DNA from: a virus
Reading direction: 5' to 3' (one strand)
DNA length: 21,492 nt
Virus record (IMG/VR): IMGVR_UViG_3300045136_000352
Span: 1 to 21,492 of that record
In this document: piece by piece, positions 1 to 21,130 of the stretch
Position numbering within the stretch: the stretch's first letter is position 1
Layout of the letters: each line of letters opens with the position of its first letter
Translations under genes and position numbers: made by a program
The notes under the pieces: model-generated
The model's database searches: none
What the model was told of the DNA's origin: nothing
Seen by the model: the letters and a program-made list of their open reading frames with translations, nothing else

Positions 1-247
1 GAGCGGCGAAGACCTTGTCGATCACTGCTGGCAGCTCGCCCGTCTTGGCCGCCGCCAGCGCCTCAGCCTCGGTGATCAGACGGGCCTGGGCGAGGGCGAT
101 CAGAAGCTGCCGGCGCGAGATGGCGGCAGGCACGGGCGGCGGAGCGTTGCGCAGCGTCTCGATCTCGGCGACCTCGGCGGGGGTGGCGTCGCGGACGATT
201 GTTTCGCCCGTGGCCGCGTTGATGGTCTGGATGCGGATGGCGGTCAT
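1..247 (-). CDS. Partial phage protein downstream of the fibre (possible tail-fibre accessory/chaperone)
   Basis: The gene starts with ATG at 247, overlapping the fibre stop as ATGA, and runs off the left edge after 82 codons, so its C-terminus is missing. The N-terminus (MTAIRIQTINAATGE) reads as a short beta-rich segment. A Pro/Ala linker follows, then a helical segment with ISRRQLLIALAQARLITEAE and LPAVIDKVFAA. I recall this 'SRRQ..ALA..GLIT..EALAA' pattern from small proteins next to fibres in alphaproteobacterial phages and prophages. Position right after the fibre gene fits a fibre-assembly or fibre-associated role, but no catalytic motif is seen and the function is inferred from context only. 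Confidence 0.7.
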   Translation of the reverse strand, partial: MTAIRIQTINAATGETIVRDATPAEVAEIETLRNAPPPVPAAISRRQLLIALAQARLITEAEALAAAKTGELPAVIDKVFAA

Positions 248-5802: not shown

Positions 5803-8409
5803 TTATCCCCCCTCGGCCTCGCGCCGCTCGGAGTTATCTGTCCGGATACGTCCAACCTCCTGGTTAAGCTGTTCCTCCAACCGCCGCGCCCGCTCTAGCG
5901 CGTTTTGCGCCGCGTTCTTCGCCGACGTTAGAACCCCTCTCGCCGTCGCTGGCCTCATTTGCGACAGGTTTTGCAGGTTATTAAGCGCGTTTTGCACTTC
6001 ATTCAAAGCTTCTCGCGCCGGCCTCTGGCCCTCAAGCTGGTGGTTCTGGGCTTGCGCTAAAACCTCTTCTATAAGCCTCTGCGTTGATTCAAGCATATCC
6101 CGCGTTTGCTTAACTAAGTCCTCCGATGGCCGCGACTGGCCCGAACTTGACAGACGCGACCCATGCAGCCATCGCTCGAACGCCAGGTTGAACGGCGCGA
6201 ACCTTTCTTGCGCCTCTATACGTCTGGCGTTAATCATCTCTTGAACGCGAATCTGCTCGTATGTTCTGCCGGGGTCCGCCCGCAGAGCGTTCAGTACTGC
6301 CCTGAGCCCAAAAGCTTTATCAAACTCGTTTTCAACCTGTTCTTTATCGCCCGTGGGTATAACCCACAGCCACGGCTGATTGTTTTCGGCCATGAGCACA
6401 CGCACAGGAGCACCGGGGCGCTTGTGCTGCCAATGCGCCACAAGCGCTGCTCTTTGCTCACCGCCGACAGTAACGGGCGTCGCGGTCACAAAGATATCGA
6501 TCTCTCGGCGAAGCTGATCTACTGTAATAGTTTCGCCTTTTGCCGCCCTAGACTTAACTATAGCTTCATAAATGGATTCAACTACTCGCCGCTCAAAAAC
6601 ATCCGGCTTAATCAGGCCGTCAAACAAATCCCGCCGGAAATAAGTAACTGGAACATTTTCCCGAGGCAACCATCTTGGTTGCGTGGAGGCTCGGTTATAC
6701 TCGAAGTTGGCAAGCGCTCGATTTACTGCAAACTCTGCGGCCTTTGTTCTCTCGTACCCAACTTGCCACGCGCGCTTGTAGTCATTAAGAAGAACCGCTT
6801 TTAGTTGTTCAGAGTTTTCTATTTGTCTGCGAAGCTGACTGTCATTTACAATATTCTTTAATGCTTGAGTCACATCAGCCCACGGGTCAATGGCGGGCGC
6901 TCGGGTTTGCGTTCGAGTTGTTAGCTTATTCCACTCTTCTTCGGTACGAGGAACCAAGTTTTCTCCCGAAAGACGCCCCGCGACCGTTGACGCCGTAATC
7001 GGCTCGTTTAACGCGCGCATGTTGTCAAGCACCACCGCAAGAGCGGGGTCTTTCCGTAGTACCTGCTCCACTGCCCACGGATGAACGTCACGCAAACGAT
7101 TAAGGAACTCGCCGACTCGGCCTCTCAACCTCGGGTCGTTCGCCGCCCCCTTAACCATGTTCTCCAACAGATTAGGAAGATCATGCGGGCGATGGTCAAG
7201 CATAAACGCAATAGCACGCTCCTGCCCTACTTGGCGCGCCCTCAACTCTATTTGGTCACTATTTACATTATTTGGCTCCGGGCCAAGCCTAGCAAGCTCG
7301 GCTTTCACCTCTTGCTGAGTAAAGAAGCCCTGTAGCGCTCGCTCGGCCCAACCCAAACCGCCGACACCATCGCCGCCGCCACCCCCGCCGCCACCGCCCC
7401 CAACACTAAGGGGGAAGTTGTCAATGGTCGCCACGGCCCGAAGAAAGTTTTCAGCCGTCCTATCCCGGCGCTCGTGCTCCTCCGCAGCTACCAGAGCTCG
7501 CAAGATACGTTCTTGCTCACTGCCTTGACGGATAACGCCTGACTTAACAGCTTCGTCTAGGGTCCGCTTCCCGTCTTCTAGCAACCCCACCCGAAGAAGC
7601 GAACGAACATTCTCGACCGCAAGCGCGGTAGCCGCCCGAGCCTCGGCCGCGGCCTGTCGCTTCTCCGTCTCCAGCCCAGAGCGCAACTGCCGTACTGCCG
7701 TTGGCGAAAGAAGCCCCTGTCCCCCATACGCCCTAAGCGCCTGTTCCGCCGCGCCAAAGTTGCGAGCATCAATAAGAGCTCGGACGGCTGTTTCAGCCGT
7801 TTCCCCGCGCACCAACCTAAGAATCTCGTCCCGCTTCTCCGGCCGGATATCATTTAAGATGGGGCCAACTTCATTCTCAAACTGGAGAAGCAAAATGTCC
7901 CGAGCGCCGGGGGTTTGCGCAATAGCTGCAACTGTTCGGGCACGCACCGTTTCAATCTGCTGGAGCGCCGCCCGCTCCACGGCCTGCTCCCGCCGCTCGG
8001 CGGCATTCAGCATCACCTGGGTGCGAAGCTGCCGCGCGTCGAGCATAAACATTTCGCGGGTCGTGGACGACCGCCAGTTAGTCCCCGCTACGACGCGATC
8101 CAGTGTCTCAGAGAATGCCCGCTCGACTTCATTCGCGTAATCGGGCGACCGCGGGTCAAGACCACGAATGCGGCTATCCAAATCTAGCCGCAGTCTTTCG
8201 AGCCCCTCGCTACGGGCGGTCGCATCTTCGAGCCGATTGGTCTTCTCGACCCGTTCAGCAATAACCCGGCCGATTTCAGCGCCCGCCCTCTCCAGGGCGT
8301 TCATGCCAGACTGAACCCAGTTCAGGCCATCGTCAAACCGGCCGTAAGCCCGAGACGCATCGCCCGGACGAGCGGTTTCGGTCGGGAAATCTCGGATCGG
8401 GCGTGCCAT
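5803..8409 (-). CDS. Internal virion protein, T7 gp15-like (by position)
   Basis: The protein has 868 residues (T7 gp15 has 747). It is mostly helical, charged and repetitive in feel, with long Arg/Glu/Ala-rich helices and no membrane segment. The last 100 residues are strongly coiled-coil-like (for example RLIEEVLAQAQNHQLE and ALERARRLEEQLNQEV). Residues 337-346 are ten consecutive glycines, a flexible linker dividing the protein into two parts. The start overlaps the upstream stop as TGATG, with no good Shine-Dalgarno, implying translational coupling. Assignment to the gp15 role (ejection-tube component of the inner core) rests on size, composition and gene order, not on a motif I can name. 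Confidence 0.75.
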   Translation of the reverse strand: MARPIRDFPTETARPGDASRAYGRFDDGLNWVQSGMNALERAGAEIGRVIAERVEKTNRLEDATARSEGLERLRLDLDSRIRGLDPRSPDYANEVERAFSETLDRVVAGTNWRSSTTREMFMLDARQLRTQVMLNAAERREQAVERAALQQIETVRARTVAAIAQTPGARDILLLQFENEVGPILNDIRPEKRDEILRLVRGETAETAVRALIDARNFGAAEQALRAYGGQGLLSPTAVRQLRSGLETEKRQAAAEARAATALAVENVRSLLRVGLLEDGKRTLDEAVKSGVIRQGSEQERILRALVAAEEHERRDRTAENFLRAVATIDNFPLSVGGGGGGGGGGDGVGGLGWAERALQGFFTQQEVKAELARLGPEPNNVNSDQIELRARQVGQERAIAFMLDHRPHDLPNLLENMVKGAANDPRLRGRVGEFLNRLRDVHPWAVEQVLRKDPALAVVLDNMRALNEPITASTVAGRLSGENLVPRTEEEWNKLTTRTQTRAPAIDPWADVTQALKNIVNDSQLRRQIENSEQLKAVLLNDYKRAWQVGYERTKAAEFAVNRALANFEYNRASTQPRWLPRENVPVTYFRRDLFDGLIKPDVFERRVVESIYEAIVKSRAAKGETITVDQLRREIDIFVTATPVTVGGEQRAALVAHWQHKRPGAPVRVLMAENNQPWLWVIPTGDKEQVENEFDKAFGLRAVLNALRADPGRTYEQIRVQEMINARRIEAQERFAPFNLAFERWLHGSRLSSSGQSRPSEDLVKQTRDMLESTQRLIEEVLAQAQNHQLEGQRPAREALNEVQNALNNLQNLSQMRPATARGVLTSAKNAAQNALERARRLEEQLNQEVGRIRTDNSERREAEGG

Positions 8410-14865: not shown

Positions 14866-15131
14866 CGGATAGCCTCCTTCGGGGGTTCAACCTGCGGCAT
14901 AGAGCCTTTGCGAATCCACTCCAACAGCCGCATCACTACAACCCGCTGCCCCTCCAAGTGAAGACTATACAGCGGGTCCAACGATCCAGTAGTCGTCTGC
15001 ACCGCCGTCGTCCGGGTCTCGTGCCCGTACATCTGGCGGAGCGCCGCAATCACCAGCCGCCCGTCGTCAGTCTGCGACAGCCGGTAAGCGGCCTCGTGCA
15101 CCGCACGCGCGTCAACGTCGATAAGGGTCAT
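14862..15131 (-). CDS. Bbp19-like small phage protein
   Basis: The 89 residues contain 'LSQTDDGRLVIAALRQMYG', then 'LHLEGQRVVVMRLLEWIRKG'. This matches the Bbp19-type pattern (a 'D.GR.VL..L' helix, then an 'EG.R.V...I' helix) of small proteins encoded between portal and scaffold in podophages. Its biochemical role is unknown to me. It is locked into the operon by ATGA overlaps at both ends, with an AAGG-like Shine-Dalgarno before its ATG. Confidence 0.62.
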   Translation of the reverse strand: MTLIDVDARAVHEAAYRLSQTDDGRLVIAALRQMYGHETRTTAVQTTTGSLDPLYSLHLEGQRVVVMRLLEWIRKGSMPQVEPPKEAIR

Positions 15132-16768
15132 CGCTGGCCTTTTCCAACCGCCGAAATCAGCTTCGCCATCGTGCTGCCGGCTTCCGACGCCATCGCCGTG
15201 CCGGCCATCATCTGCTGTTGCTCGGCCCGGGCCTGACGGATCGCCTCGATCTCCTGCCGCGACCGCATCAGCCGCGCCGGCACGCCCGAAGCCGAATGCA
15301 ACAGCGCCACTACCGCGTCAGCATTTACAACGTCGGCCGCCCGCGGGTCAAGCTGGCTGATAAACGCCACGCCCTCCAGCCAGCGGATTGCCGCCATGGC
15401 CTCAGTCTGCATAGCCGAAGTGATTACTGGCGAAAGGTGCTGGATAACAAAAGCCTGCCCAGGTTCGGCTGGAGGAGCCGGCAAGCGCCCCTGACGAGTC
15501 AGCACCCCCATAACCCGCCAGATCAGTGGTTCCAGCAGGGAGTTCTGGAGGCGCAGCACCATCGGGCTAACGGCTCGGTTGCGCTCATCTTGGCTGACCA
15601 TGATCTCGCCGACCGTGCGGGGCTGCTTGGAACCGGTCGGGTTCTGGTCCATGAACAGGTGGATGAAAAACGCCTCGCGGATACGCCGCTCCTTGTCGGC
15701 CAGCATGTCTACGCCAACCTCGATTCGGCTGGCCCCGGGCGGCAGAAGAGGCTCAAGTGCGTTTTCGCCATCCGTATAGGTGATGCCGGCCGGATAGAGG
15801 CGCAGCGGGGAAAGCAGCGCGCCATCCCGCACCATCCACGGCGGGTCCACGAGCTTCTCGGCCCCACGGGTGATGAGCTCAGACAGACTGTTCGCCTGGG
15901 CCACCTCGCCAAGCGCCGTCATGGCCGGCGAACGGCCCCACACGCTGTCCTCAACGCTATACCAAGGCACCAAAAAGATCGGCTGCTCCAAGAAGACGCT
16001 GACCTCGGCGTAGGTATCGGTCTCGGGGTGCAGCCAAATGCCAACCCACTCCGCGCCAGTGGCCAAATACTGCTCCGGCACGATATCCTTGATCTCCGGG
16101 TCGTCTGTGCGGATGCAGGCGAACAGCATCTCGACCGGGGTGTCCAGCTTGGGGTTCAGCTTGCCCGTCAGGGCCGGGAACTTCATGAGGGCCGCCCGGG
16201 CACGGAAAGTCTTGCGGATATAGACCGCGCAAGTCTCGCCTTCGGCATCCGCCTCGCCGGACACCTCCCAAACCGGGATGTGCTGGAACCGAACGCCCCG
16301 CCGGTTCTTACGGTCTTCCCAAACCGCGAGACACCCGGAACCATACGCCCCCAGGTCAAGGGCCATCTTGTGAAGCGCCGCAACGGCGGACTGCTTGCCA
16401 GTGAACAGAGTAGTCCGCGCCCGCTTGGCTACCAGATCACACCACTGCCGCAGGGCCATGTCCTGCCGCAGCAAGTCCTCATCCGCTTCGCCGTTGGCCC
16501 CCTCTGGCTTGATCCAAAACGACTGTGTGCCGACGGCCCCGGCCACAAATACGTTCGACAACAAGAAGGACGCGAACAGCTCTAGCGATCGAACAGCCGT
16601 GCTGTCCGCCAGCCGCCGCTCCCGCTCGTCTCCAGAACTCTGCTCTTCACGATAAGAAAGAGACGAGGGAAAACAGAAGCTTTGGATGGTCCGCCAGAGC
16701 CCTTCCCGCTCTTTGCGGACTGTCTCAGCCGCCGCAATACGCTCTCGAAGGGTTCTGGCCCCGGTCAT
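15128..16768 (-). CDS. Portal protein (T7 gp8-like head-tail connector)
   Basis: At 546 residues it is close to T7 gp8 (536). It contains the family sequences in order: 'RERIAAAETVRKEREGLWRTIQSFCFPS', 'DSTAVRSLELFASFLLSNVF', 'FQHIPVWEVSGEAD', 'VPWYSVEDSVWGRSPAMTALGEVAQANSL', 'MVRDGALLSPLRLYPAGI', 'FFIHLFMDQNPTGSKQPRTVGEIMVSQDER' and a C-terminal Gln/Ala-rich helix (EIEAIRQARAEQQQMMAG). Twelve copies would form the DNA channel at one vertex and dock the terminase and the tail adaptor. The ATG overlaps the upstream stop as ATGA without a clear Shine-Dalgarno, so translation is probably coupled to the duplicated small gene before it. Confidence 0.93.
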   Translation of the reverse strand: MTGARTLRERIAAAETVRKEREGLWRTIQSFCFPSSLSYREEQSSGDERERRLADSTAVRSLELFASFLLSNVFVAGAVGTQSFWIKPEGANGEADEDLLRQDMALRQWCDLVAKRARTTLFTGKQSAVAALHKMALDLGAYGSGCLAVWEDRKNRRGVRFQHIPVWEVSGEADAEGETCAVYIRKTFRARAALMKFPALTGKLNPKLDTPVEMLFACIRTDDPEIKDIVPEQYLATGAEWVGIWLHPETDTYAEVSVFLEQPIFLVPWYSVEDSVWGRSPAMTALGEVAQANSLSELITRGAEKLVDPPWMVRDGALLSPLRLYPAGITYTDGENALEPLLPPGASRIEVGVDMLADKERRIREAFFIHLFMDQNPTGSKQPRTVGEIMVSQDERNRAVSPMVLRLQNSLLEPLIWRVMGVLTRQGRLPAPPAEPGQAFVIQHLSPVITSAMQTEAMAAIRWLEGVAFISQLDPRAADVVNADAVVALLHSASGVPARLMRSRQEIEAIRQARAEQQQMMAGTAMASEAGSTMAKLISAVGKGQR

Positions 16769-17022
16769 CAGCCAAGCAAGCTCTGCTTATTAAGCAGCGT
16801 CCGCTCATCGGTTAGCAAGGTAGGGGCGCGGCCCTGCTGGGCTCGAATCTTTGCTTGCGTCGCCTCAAACGCCTTGCGTTCAAGTGTACTACCAACCCGC
16901 CCCGCACGGAACGCTTCACGATCCTCGTCGGTCCAGGACGTTCCCCGCTTGCCAGATAAAACCTCCCGAGCAAGCTGCACCTTTTCTTCGCGGCTAAGAC
17001 TCCGGTCATGGTAGAATGCCAT
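16768..17022 (-). CDS. Small tandem-duplicated protein, copy A
   Basis: This 84-residue protein is the portal-proximal copy of a tandem duplication with a 269-bp period. It matches copy B (17037-17291) at 70 of 84 residues. It is Arg/Lys/Glu-rich and mostly helical, ending in 'QQGRAPTLLTDERTLLNKQSLLG'. The ending resembles the 'GRAATILT......LLG' C-terminal motif of small proteins encoded just before portals in many phages, whose function I do not know. The AGGG Shine-Dalgarno (GAGGGAAGATCAG before ATG) is identical to that of copy B. Its TGA overlaps the portal ATG. Confidence 0.75.
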   Translation of the reverse strand: MAFYHDRSLSREEKVQLAREVLSGKRGTSWTDEDREAFRAGRVGSTLERKAFEATQAKIRAQQGRAPTLLTDERTLLNKQSLLG

Positions 17023-17036
17023 CTGATCTTCCCTCG

Positions 17037-17291
17037 CTACCCGAGCAAGCTCTGCTGATTAAGCATCGTCCGCTCATCGGTTAGCAAAGTAGCGGCACGA
17101 CCCTGCTGGACTCGAATCTTTGCTTGCGTCGCCTCAAACGCCTTGCGTTCAAGTGTACTACCAATCCGCCCCGCACGGGACGCTTCATAATCCTCGTCGG
17201 TCCAGGACGTTCCCCGCTTGCCATATAAAACCTCCCGAGCAAGCTGCTCCTTTTTTTCGCGGCTAGGACTCCAGAGACGGTAGAATGCCAT
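17037..17291 (-). CDS. Small tandem-duplicated protein, copy B
   Basis: The 84-residue twin of copy A has the same N-terminal block (SREKKEQLAREVLYGKRG, TSWTDED, RAGRIGSTLERKAFEATQAK) and C-terminal motif. All codon differences from copy A within codons 1-61 change the amino acid (11 changed codons, no silent ones). Silent changes appear only in the last 23 codons. That is unusual for two functioning copies. The C-terminal 24 codons, stop, intergenic spacer and Shine-Dalgarno are almost identical to those after copy C, pointing to very recent duplication or gene conversion. Confidence 0.75.
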   Translation of the reverse strand: MAFYRLWSPSREKKEQLAREVLYGKRGTSWTDEDYEASRAGRIGSTLERKAFEATQAKIRVQQGRAATLLTDERTMLNQQSLLG

Positions 17292-17305
17292 CTGATCTTC
17301 CCTCG

Positions 17306-17509
17306 CTACCCGAGCAAGCTCTGCTGATTAAGCAGCGTCCGCTCATCGGTAAGCAAAGTAGCGGCACGACCCTGCTGGACTCGCATCTTCGCCTGCATCT
17401 CCTTGAACGCCTTGCGCTCCGCCTCCTCGCGCTCCTTCCTGGCCCGCTCCTCCGCCTCGCGCTGAATAGCAGAGTAATCCGGCATCTTCGGCCCCTTAAA
17501 GAACCCCAT
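17306..17509 (-). CDS. Small pre-portal protein, copy C (likely parental form)
   Basis: The 67-residue protein begins MGFFKGPKMPDYSAIQREAE, runs through a highly charged helix (ERARKEREEAERKAF), and ends with the same motif as copies A and B (RVQQGRAATLLTDERTLLNQ). The short N-terminus with Lys/Pro, then a charged helix, then 'GRAATLLT...LLG', is the usual architecture of this pre-portal phage family. Copy C is therefore probably ancestral, while A and B carry a different N-terminal half. The ATG overlaps the upstream stop as TAATG. Confidence 0.75.
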   Translation of the reverse strand: MGFFKGPKMPDYSAIQREAEERARKEREEAERKAFKEMQAKMRVQQGRAATLLTDERTLLNQQSLLG

Positions 17510-17730
17510 TAGCCTCTCTCCATCTGATAAAGGGAGTTGGCTTCCCGCATAACGGCTTCCATCCTTCGAGCCTCTTCGGGCGTAAAAGCCCCCCTAACCT
17601 TATGCCGTTTTGGCTTCGAGTGCAAGGCCCACCAACGCGCCTGCTCGATAGGCGACCTGGCCGTCAGCGGAACAAACTCCTCCGCCGCCGGGTCATCCCG
17701 AGGATCAAGCGGGGCGGCACGAAAAATCAT
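17509..17730 (-). CDS. Hypothetical protein, 73 residues
   Basis: I chose ATG at 17730 (MIFRAAPLDPRDDPAAEEF) rather than the in-frame GTG at 17742. The ATG overlaps the TGA of the 32-codon gene upstream as ATGA, the coupling style of this operon. The protein is soluble and helical, with 'SPIEQARWWALHSKPKRHKVRG', then 'FTPEEARRMEAVMREANSLYQ'. I do not recognise the family. Its stop overlaps the ATG of copy C (TAATG). Position among terminase-portal accessory genes suggests a head-assembly or regulatory role, but nothing in the sequence proves it. Confidence 0.6.
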   Translation of the reverse strand: MIFRAAPLDPRDDPAAEEFVPLTARSPIEQARWWALHSKPKRHKVRGAFTPEEARRMEAVMREANSLYQMERG

Positions 17731-17825
17731 CGCCTGAACCACCCCTTTACGGTGGCAATAGCCTTCCTAACCCACTGCCGCACGCGCTCAAAAGCCCCGC
17801 GGATGGCACGAAACACTGCGCGCAT
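17727..17825 (-). CDS. 32-residue cationic amphipathic peptide
   Basis: A short gene starts at ATG 17825, one base after the upstream TGA. An AGGAGGT Shine-Dalgarno lies 8 nt ahead (within 17834-17841), and the gene stops at 17727, overlapping the next ATG. The product has eight Arg, two Lys and one Glu (net about +9). Its hydrophobic residues are V4 F5 I8 A11 F12 V15 W18 V19 A22 I23 V26 W29 F30, spaced every 3-4 positions, so it folds as an almost ideal amphipathic helix. Such helices bind membranes or nucleic acid. It could be a lysis or antimicrobial-like peptide, an RNA/DNA-binding peptide or a virion component. The ribosome site and tight packing favour a real gene. Confidence 0.6.
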   Translation of the reverse strand: MRAVFRAIRGAFERVRQWVRKAIATVKGWFRR

Positions 17826-17826
17826 G

Positions 17827-18048
17827 TCACACCACCTCCTCATCAGCGGCCCGCTTCTTCCTGGTTGGCTTAAGCTTCGCCTCAAGCTCGGCCACCACCC
17901 CCTCCTGATAAGCTACCAGAGCAGCCCGGGGGAAGTCACCAATCCTCTCAATCCGAAACTCCTGCGAGCCCCGGGCCGCCCATTCACGAAGAAGGGCCAG
18001 CTTCTCCCGGGCCTGAGAAAGCTCGATAGAAGTCGTTTGGTCGGACAT
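17827..18048 (-). CDS. Small protein with gpW-like layout (tentative)
   Basis: The 73 residues form a helix (SIELSQAREKLALLREWAARG), a short probable beta hairpin (QEFRIERIGDFPRAALVA), a second helix (YQEGVVAELEAKL), and a basic then acidic tail (KPTRKKRAADEEVV). The helix-hairpin-helix order, size and location between terminase and portal recall the gpW head-completion protein of lambda, but typical gpW residues are not clearly present, so the assignment is weak. AAAGGAG about 9 nt before the ATG decides the start. The gene overlaps the end of the HExxH gene by 65 nt in another frame. Confidence 0.6.
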   Translation of the reverse strand: MSDQTTSIELSQAREKLALLREWAARGSQEFRIERIGDFPRAALVAYQEGVVAELEAKLKPTRKKRAADEEVV

Positions 18049-18358
18049 ACTTTTTGTCTCCTTTCAGCAAGGTGTGGCAAGCCGGCAACAGCAGCGGGTT
18101 CGCCACAAACAGAGAAGTCATAGCACACGCCGCCACCGTGCACATCTCCTCCTCGGAAAAATGCCGGTCTTGCTGCCCGGTCTCATAAAGATAGGCATGC
18201 AGGGCCTCGTGCAGGAGGGTGTCCACAAACCGGTGCGGGGCCAAGTCCGGGGCGATTGTAATAATCTGAGTCTTGGGGTCGGTTTCCCCAAAAGCCCCGT
18301 CGGGCAAGGTGGCCATCACAACCGAATAAACAGTTGTACTGATCATGAGCAAAGGCAT
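17984..18358 (-). CDS. HExxH putative zinc metallopeptidase-like phage protein
   Basis: The 124-residue protein has 'TLLHEALHAYLYETG', with H50-E51-A-L-H54 as a zinc-binding HExxH motif. 'SEEEMCTVAACAMTSLFVANPLLL' follows, and its acidic run may supply a third ligand. A short HExxH helix followed by '.EEE.....A.......NP.L' is a pattern I know from small phage and prophage proteins of unknown substrate. An N-terminal beta hairpin (ISTTVYSVVM, KTQIITIA) precedes it. The ATG lies one base after the terminase stop, with GGAG 9 nt upstream. The last 65 nt overlap the next gene. Peptidase activity has not been shown for this group as far as I know. Confidence 0.72.
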   Translation of the reverse strand: MPLLMISTTVYSVVMATLPDGAFGETDPKTQIITIAPDLAPHRFVDTLLHEALHAYLYETGQQDRHFSEEEMCTVAACAMTSLFVANPLLLPACHTLLKGDKKYVRPNDFYRAFSGPGEAGPSS

Positions 18359-18359
18359 T

Positions 18360-19838
18360 CTAAGTCTCCGCCGTGGTTTGGGAGTTGTAGCGGCTGCCGA
18401 AAGACCATTTCGGCATACCTATGGCTCCGGTAGCCAGAGCATCGGCAACATGCGATGCCATGTCGTGCACGGGCTCTTCTTTTAACACGCCAGTCTTTTC
18501 GTCCCGCTCCCGCCGGTAAGTTGCGAGTAAGTCCAGCCCGTCCATACACGCGCGTGAGAACACCGCATGCTTGAGAAGCCGCCTAGTAGCCGTGATCTGC
18601 TCGATCTTGGGCGCTTTGCGCACGGGGGTCCCTATAAGCCCCGCCTCACTGAACTGGCTGATCCGGCTCTTGCCGGAACCCAGCTCATGCTGGGCCACGT
18701 CGTGCGGCATGTAGTTGACGCCCAGCCGCCAAACCTGGCCGTCTGTGACGGCGTATTCCCGAACGCGCTGCACGATCGTCGGGATGGCGGCCCCAATGAA
18801 CTGGAGGTAGCCGATAAAGATCGGGGTACCGGCAACCCGCTGGAAGAACCAGACCACGGTCATATCGTTCCACCCCAGGTCCCAACAGGTGTTTACCTGC
18901 AGGTTTGGATTATACCGCACATCCGTGATCCGCCCCGAGGCCCGGAGCTCCTCCAACTCAAGCCGATAGATCGCCCCCTCGACACCTGCCTCGAAGTCGC
19001 ACTCGTATTCCTGGGCAAACTCGGTTGGGCTCAAGTCGGCCTGGAGGTTGGCGATCTCTTCCGGGGTCACCATGCCCGTCTGGTGCACCGTGTACAGGCT
19101 GGCCGACCAATTGTCGCTGGTATTGGTCACAACCGAACCATCGTGCCGCCGCCACGTCACCGCCTCCCCGGCCTGCCAGCGGGCCGCCCGGTCATACATC
19201 CGGTAGAGATGGTTCCGGCCCAGCGGGGTGCCGATGAACGTTGCCCACTGGTTCGGGTAGCCTCGATGGTCAAACCCCTGCCGGCTTTTGTCCGACAGCA
19301 TCGGCCGGACCTGTTGGGTCCAGACGTGCTCGGGAATGTGCTGCCACTCGTCGATCACCACCCCGTCTAGATAGCCGCCGCGAAGGCGCTGCTTCGGGCT
19401 GTCCACGCCGTACAGCCGGATGCGGCTGACGCCGCCCCGGACGGTCGGAATGTACACCGCCAGCCGGCTGTCTTTGATCGTGGTTCCGGGGATTTGCAAG
19501 GCGCGCTCGCGAAGCTCGGCCCAAGCGATGTCCTCAACCTGCGAATAGGTCGGGCCGAGATAGGCGTACCGGCCGTTGGGGAACGGGCAGTTTACCGCCC
19601 GGTCCAGCAGCTTCATAATTTGGCTAAAACTTTTGCCCGAACGACGATGCCAGACATCGACCGAAAAACGGGTCTTGCGCTCTATGGTTTCAAGCTGATG
19701 CGGGGCAGGCCGCATGTCAAAATAGGCCCAGGCATCGCGGGGGGTAACGGGCCGAAACTCCGGCCGCTTGTCTTCTTCCCGCGTCACCTTGGGGGCGGCG
19801 ATCTTAATCAGCCGATTTGCCTGGGCCAGGATTGTCAC
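18360..19838 (-). CDS. terL: Terminase large subunit (DNA packaging ATPase/nuclease)
   Basis: The 492-residue protein has an ATPase domain with Walker A-like HRRSGKS (64-70), Walker B GVVIDEW (159-165, D163/E164) and a C-motif 'IGTP' (202-205). A nuclease domain follows with 'CWDLGWNDMT' (D320), 'MPHD' (D380) and 'HVADAL' (D466) as likely metal-binding acidic residues. It pumps DNA through the portal and cuts it. The start is GTG at 19838, four bases after the upstream stop; the Shine-Dalgarno is weak. I see no recognisable small terminase subunit. One of the unidentified genes to the right may fill that role. Confidence 0.94.
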   Translation of the reverse strand: MTILAQANRLIKIAAPKVTREEDKRPEFRPVTPRDAWAYFDMRPAPHQLETIERKTRFSVDVWHRRSGKSFSQIMKLLDRAVNCPFPNGRYAYLGPTYSQVEDIAWAELRERALQIPGTTIKDSRLAVYIPTVRGGVSRIRLYGVDSPKQRLRGGYLDGVVIDEWQHIPEHVWTQQVRPMLSDKSRQGFDHRGYPNQWATFIGTPLGRNHLYRMYDRAARWQAGEAVTWRRHDGSVVTNTSDNWSASLYTVHQTGMVTPEEIANLQADLSPTEFAQEYECDFEAGVEGAIYRLELEELRASGRITDVRYNPNLQVNTCWDLGWNDMTVVWFFQRVAGTPIFIGYLQFIGAAIPTIVQRVREYAVTDGQVWRLGVNYMPHDVAQHELGSGKSRISQFSEAGLIGTPVRKAPKIEQITATRRLLKHAVFSRACMDGLDLLATYRRERDEKTGVLKEEPVHDMASHVADALATGAIGMPKWSFGSRYNSQTTAET

Positions 19839-19841
19839 GGG

Positions 19842-20012
19842 TCACTCAGCCCCGAGGCTGGCGCTCCCAGACGGCGAACGCGGCGGGTCGAGCCTCGAAT
19901 AGCCGCCGTAGGAGCGACCCGCGTCCTTACGCGCCCGCTCAAGTTCGCCCTGGAGCAGGCAAATCTTGACGATCAAGCCGAGGATGATGAGCAGCAGGAT
20001 TGACTCATACAT
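19842..20012 (-). CDS. Small single-pass membrane protein
   Basis: I chose ATG at 20012, giving 56 residues, because AAAGGAA lies 8 nt upstream and the start overlaps the preceding stop region; the longer start at 20045 has no Shine-Dalgarno. The N-terminus (YESILLLIILGLIVKICLL, about residues 2-20) is one hydrophobic helix. A short charged helix (QGELERARKDAG) and a Ser/Pro/Gly-rich tail follow. An N-terminal anchor with a charged tail is compatible with an inner-membrane spanin component or an unusual holin, but those are guesses. Confidence 0.6.
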   Translation of the reverse strand: MYESILLLIILGLIVKICLLQGELERARKDAGRSYGGYSRLDPPRSPSGSASLGAE

Positions 20013-20655: not shown

Positions 20656-21054
20656 TCACACGCCACCGATCGGGGCCATGAAGCACCAGATCGTGTACAG
20701 GCCACAGACGTGGTAGCGCCCGTCAGGGCTCTCCATGCGCTGGTTGTACGGGATGATGTACCGGGTGTTCAACTGGAGCTTCGGGTGCTCACTGCGGTCG
20801 CGCAGGATCACCTCATAGCCCTCAGGAATGGCCCTGACCCGGTTGGACGGGATTGGGGCGCACCAGCCGTGGGTGCAGCAGCATTGCCGGTTGTAGGCGA
20901 ACCCAGGCTGGTTGCATGACCCAAACTCCTGGTCCACCTCGCCCACCCGGGGCTCAGCATCATCCCGGATGGTCACAGAGCCCTCTTCATCGCCAAGGGC
21001 GGGGCTGGAGATCAACAGACCGGCGACCAGAGCGGTCAGAAAGAAGCGCAACAT
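20656..21054 (-). CDS. Secreted cysteine-rich protein of unknown function
   Basis: ATG at 21054 is chosen over 21066 because GGAGG lies five bases before it. The 132-residue product has a signal peptide (MLRFFLTALVAGLLIS, then SPALG with likely cleavage after G21). The mature protein has seven cysteines (C47, C58-C60, C65, C117, C124) and the pattern 'RQCCCTHGWCAPIPS', 'RAIPEGYEV', 'SPDGRYHVC' and 'CFMAP'. I associate the CC.....C.P.. / SPDG.YH.C / C....P layout with periplasmic hypothetical proteins of Alphaproteobacteria. It is the first gene after the late promoter. Periplasmic disulphide-bonded function is likely; the actual job is unknown. Confidence 0.7.
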   Translation of the reverse strand: MLRFFLTALVAGLLISSPALGDEEGSVTIRDDAEPRVGEVDQEFGSCNQPGFAYNRQCCCTHGWCAPIPSNRVRAIPEGYEVILRDRSEHPKLQLNTRYIIPYNQRMESPDGRYHVCGLYTIWCFMAPIGGV

Positions 21055-21130
21055 CGGGGCCTCCATGGTTGTTGCAGGTTTCGCTCTATAGAATACCTAA
21101 GGTCCGCGCCGCGGCGCGATCTCAATGAGC

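Follow-up and report, generated by a model that had tools for sequence, protein, structure and literature searches.

Between the terminase and portal genes of a podovirus-like phage lies an open reading frame of only 32 codons, which raises the question of whether it is a gene and, if so, whether its product takes part in host lysis. The DNA analysed (the window) is a linear fragment of 21,492 bases (21.5-kb). Its minus-strand genes start with the terminase large subunit [TerL (18360-19838; phrog_2, 7e-37)], a 124-aa HExxH protein (17984-18358) with weak SprT-like, M78 and DUF6782 similarity, a 73-aa gene (17827-18048), the 32-codon gene (17727-17825), a 77-aa gene and short pre-portal genes. 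These are followed by the portal or head-tail adaptor (15128-16768; phrog_332, 1e-79), a scaffold-like protein, the major capsid protein (MCP), tail tube proteins, large internal proteins and the fibre. HExxH-type proteins are also found at the position equivalent to that of the 124-aa protein in the related contigs L013, L008 and L029. The 77-aa gene (17509-17730, minus strand, in a 73-codon reading from the ATG at 17730) encodes a conserved pre-portal protein with homologues in sister lineages. Two 84-aa genes and a 67-aa gene (16768-17509, minus strand) share a similar ending, QQGRA.TLLTDERT.LN.QSLLG; these three pre-portal genes appear to be tandem copies, the number of which varies among relatives.

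The 32-codon frame is located on the minus strand, with its ATG at 17825-17823 and its TGA at 17729-17727; the plus strand of the same coordinates does not contain this frame. The TGA of the 73-aa gene (17829-17827) is followed by a single C and then by the ATG of the 32-codon gene, and the stop of the latter overlaps the ATG of the 77-aa gene as ATGA (17730-17727). The ribosome-binding site AGGAGGT (17840-17834, minus strand) is located within the 3' part of the 73-aa gene, 8 nt before the ATG. A preliminary description of this DNA, in which the strand was left unstated, had reported the well-spaced AGGAGGT, the start one base after the previous stop and the ATGA overlap, and all three were confirmed.

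Searches with the terminase, portal and 77-aa gene identified seven other IMG/VR contigs that span the site (L002, L003, L004, L005, L006, L007, and L018). Relatives that lack the frame or carry stops in it would, according to the preliminary description, speak against the gene. Frame and both junctions are kept in all seven, of which L002 adds little, its TerL and peptide being identical to those of the window. The core ribosome site is conserved in the relatives compared, reading AGGAGGT in all except L007 (AGGAGGG). When about 3,200 start-stop pairs (25-60 aa) from nine phage sequences were scanned, a charge of at least +7 together with a moment (muH) of at least 0.45 occurred only in the peptide and its homologues. 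The 32-codon frame is therefore a real, conserved and hitherto overlooked gene, which forms part of the terminase-portal operon in a lineage of podovirus-like phages. The TerL of L007 (L007:1409-3919, 836 aa) carries at its Walker A motif an intein-like insert, which is missing in the window and in L002-L006.

The encoded peptide, MRAVFRAIRGAFERVRQWVRKAIATVKGWFRR, consists of 32 amino acids with a counted net charge of +9, a mean hydrophobicity of 0.33 and a muH of 0.595 at 100 degrees, a value reached by none of 20,000 shuffled sequences. An AlphaFold2 model predicted one helix comprising residues 2-31 with a mean pLDDT of 78 (moderate confidence). The near-ideal cationic amphipathic helix of about +9 that had been proposed from the DNA is thus supported. 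No transmembrane segment was found, the maximal 19-residue Kyte-Doolittle mean being -0.04 for the 32-aa form and 0.30 for a 43-aa form, and no lipoprotein signal or N-terminal transmembrane segment is present, as the sequence is without cysteine and without a hydrophobic stretch. No significant homologue of the peptide was obtained from PHROGs, Pfam, the PDB sequences (searched up to an E of 10) or a set of 50,697 phage records (the best Pfam match, with E 0.09, was below the curated cut-off), and none was found in the named phages or sister lineages examined.

Besides the version of the window, four distinct variants were obtained: MRAVFRAIRGALERVRRWVRRIIAIVRGWFKR (L003 and L004), MRAVFRAIRGALERVRQWVKRGIATVRGWFKR (L007) and two 43-aa forms, one shared by L005 and L018 and one in L006. 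The 43-aa forms carry an insertion of 11 residues, corresponding to three helical turns, so that the hydrophobic face stays in register; the DNA of these long forms resembles a diverged 33-nt tandem repeat. Across the versions the length ranges from 32 to 43 residues and the charge from +9 to +13. In each of the five protein versions the muH peaks at 100 degrees, with values of 0.49-0.66 (shuffle P 0.00025 or less), and the combined moment/charge index is 2.5-3.0 for 18-residue windows. Among the short forms the dN/dS of the peptide is 0.29-0.90; it is 0.44-0.60 when short and long forms are compared and 1.09, on four changes, between L005 and L006. For the 77-aa gene the same sequences give 0.05-0.13. 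Purifying constraint on the peptide is thus weak at the sequence level: the sequence evolves fast while charge and amphipathicity persist. Junctions, frame, charge and moment are retained in versions that differ at as many as about 38 of 96 sites, and in simulations of neutral drift from the window peptide to the L005 form, which ignore the insertion, frame, charge and moment were all kept in 0.06% of the trials. Both checks on the helix suggested beforehand, moment prediction and conservation of the charge/hydrophobic pattern in relatives, were borne out, and selection on this strongly amphipathic helix acts on charge and helical face rather than on the exact sequence.

The preliminary description had further pointed to the lack of a recognisable endolysin or holin in the window and had suggested an antimicrobial or lysis peptide. 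Neither an endolysin nor a spanin was recognised within the fragment, so the statement on the endolysin holds. The window breaks off, however, 82 codons into a gene behind the fibre (2-247, minus strand), which is 132-147 aa long in relatives and is directly followed there by a GH108 endolysin. The endolysin is not visible because the fragment stops just short of the expected lysis cassette, and a lysis gene missing from a fragment is no evidence of its absence. In addition, a possible holin adjoins TerL: a protein of 56 aa (19842-20009, minus strand) whose N-terminal part contains one strong hydrophobic segment.

The cassette is visible in contig L040, the nearest relative to continue beyond the low end of the window, which shares a metagenome identifier with L002, L005, L007, and L014 and is 93% (MCP), 97% (tail tube A), 95% (tail tube B) and 96% (p139) identical to the window. 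About 150 nt beyond the homologous breakpoint the truncated gene ends in L040. Next comes an endolysin that combines glycosyl-hydrolase-108 (GH108) and PG_binding_3 domains with a hydrophobic segment at its C terminus; behind it are an Rz-like spanin (phrog_1026, 4e-10) and, at the contig end, an ORF with a signal-peptide start (first codons MRIAALVLAALLA) that is a probable o-spanin. The same endolysin order is present in L044, L041, and L042, which are less related to the window, and L044 also carries a complete spanin-like pair. A separate holin was not identified in the post-fibre lysis cassette. In view of L040, the proposal that the peptide fills in for missing lysis genes is not supported; what stands is a real gene for a conserved cationic amphipathic helix. 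The 868-aa internal protein (5803-8409) is only 45% identical between the window and L040, and since its neighbours, the tail-tube and p139/p175 proteins, reach 90-97%, recombination at this protein is suggested.

No contig with both peptide and lysis cassette was found: records with an L040-type endolysin gave no TerL match, and a search with the 1290-aa protein for a contig joining the two returned nothing. A TerL search of bacterial genomes yielded no proviruses. From the comparison with L040 we nevertheless strongly infer that peptide and lysis cassette co-occur in the lineage of the window. In other lineages the lysis genes are located elsewhere. L014 has a lysozyme (Phage_lysozyme, PF00959) and spanin-like ORFs upstream of TerL. 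In one sister lineage (L021, L023, L024, and L025) the interval from TerL to the 77-aa homologue contains an endolysin, an Rz-like protein and a probable lipoprotein (family searches for this group were run on L021), with the o-spanin-like gene immediately upstream of the 77-aa homologue. The lineages L008, L013, L014, L026, and L029 contain neither the peptide nor recognisable lysis genes in the TerL-to-portal slot; as these five lack such a gene at the equivalent place, the peptide gene is evidently not essential to the family. Lysis genes thus change position within the family, and in the lineage of the window the peptide occupies this variable slot. Given how the slot varies between lineages, little weight can be placed on a position shared with lysis genes. 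The window also encodes a 136-aa protein (20656-21066, minus strand) that is rich in cysteine and has a signal-like start; its homologue in L014 (L034:3411-3827) immediately precedes the spanin-like ORFs.

Among tailed phages that infect Gram-negative hosts, about 13% have no identifiable spanins, and systematic prediction of disruptins is complicated by their diversity (PMC12819732). The peptide could be read as the outer-membrane disruptor of this phage, replacing spanins like the disruptin of phage PhiKT (Holt et al., 2022, per PMC12819732). Compared by description only, the likeness lies in a short phage-encoded amphipathic helix of antimicrobial-peptide character; the window is without a spanin, and the peptide is located at the place of the o-spanin-like gene of the L021/L023-L025 group. 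The window is truncated before the spanin place, however, and since the near relative L040 carries an Rz-like spanin and the start of a probable o-spanin behind its endolysin, a disruptin-like replacement of spanins is unlikely. With Rz/Rz1-type spanins themselves, which are envelope-directed late proteins, the peptide shares this place in L021/L023-L025 but differs from them in having no transmembrane segment, signal or lipobox. Similarly, it may share with holins an inner-membrane target late in infection, but differs in being without a transmembrane segment. More room is left for a cofactor of packaging or head assembly, in which the basic helix would bind DNA, the terminase or the portal, although we regard this as unlikely too. 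It would fit the location between TerL and portal, where a basic peptide might just as well serve to bind DNA, and Pelagibacter phage HTVC028P has a short, very basic 53-aa ORF (+23; record 33559-33720) in the same interval. This ORF is not amphipathic (muH 0.17) and has no visible sequence similarity to the peptide, and no amphipathic peptide was found in the corresponding interval of HTVC010P. Moreover, selection maintains the bulky hydrophobic face (V, F, I, W) of the peptide, and DNA binding alone needs none.

The 73-aa gene immediately upstream is a possible functional partner. Throughout the seven contigs the two genes adjoin each other with a single base between them; the 73-aa gene was only seen alongside the peptide gene, and the sister lineages showed neither in recognisable form. 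Two helices are predicted for the 73-aa protein; this would suit a complex in which the peptide is its small regulator or partner, for example a toxin with its shield or the peripheral anchor that ties a late phage protein to the membrane. With a net charge of 0 and no family match in profile searches, the 73-aa protein itself offers little to this explanation, which we consider doubtful. A relationship of the 73-aa protein to a 123-135-aa protein of the sister lineage was considered and is unsupported (hhalign probability of 0.5%). A functionless frame that is open by chance, finally, would be short and under weak sequence-level purifying selection, as observed here, but the conserved junctions, frame, charge and moment and the uniqueness of the peptide and its homologues in the scan make this explanation highly improbable.

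Tentatively, and with somewhat less than even confidence, we favour a putative role of the conserved amphipathic helix as a late, membrane-active accessory to an ordinary lysis cassette. Because the very close relative L040 has ordinary lysis genes past the window's end, the peptide is unlikely to be the main lysis factor of the phage. Its translation would be coupled to that of the upstream 73-aa gene and its expression would be late. The peptide may fold upon contact with an anionic membrane, and given the lack of a transmembrane segment, the high charge and the bulky hydrophobic face, a helix in the plane of the membrane is the best reading. It would lie in the inner leaflet of the inner membrane, and on the outer membrane once the envelope opens, where it may perturb the bilayer and aid envelope failure at the end of infection. 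It would thereby assist a GH108 endolysin and Rz/Rz1-type spanins, encoded by a cassette that is probably located behind the tail fibre just past the low end of the window. As no separate holin was identified in the cassette, assistance in permeabilising the inner membrane would be its likeliest specific task.

A more elaborate arrangement, which we consider unlikely, is that a lineage with endolysin and spanins also makes a dedicated antimicrobial-type helix that disrupts the envelope as a second, independent agent or stands in for a holin, with the 73-aa protein acting as a coupled intracellular shield. A gene like the present one can be recognised cleanly in metagenomic phage DNA, as a short frame with operon junctions whose product keeps its charge and has its moment peak at 100 degrees. 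If active, the peptide would represent an antimicrobial-type peptide within a phage lineage that apparently keeps its spanins.
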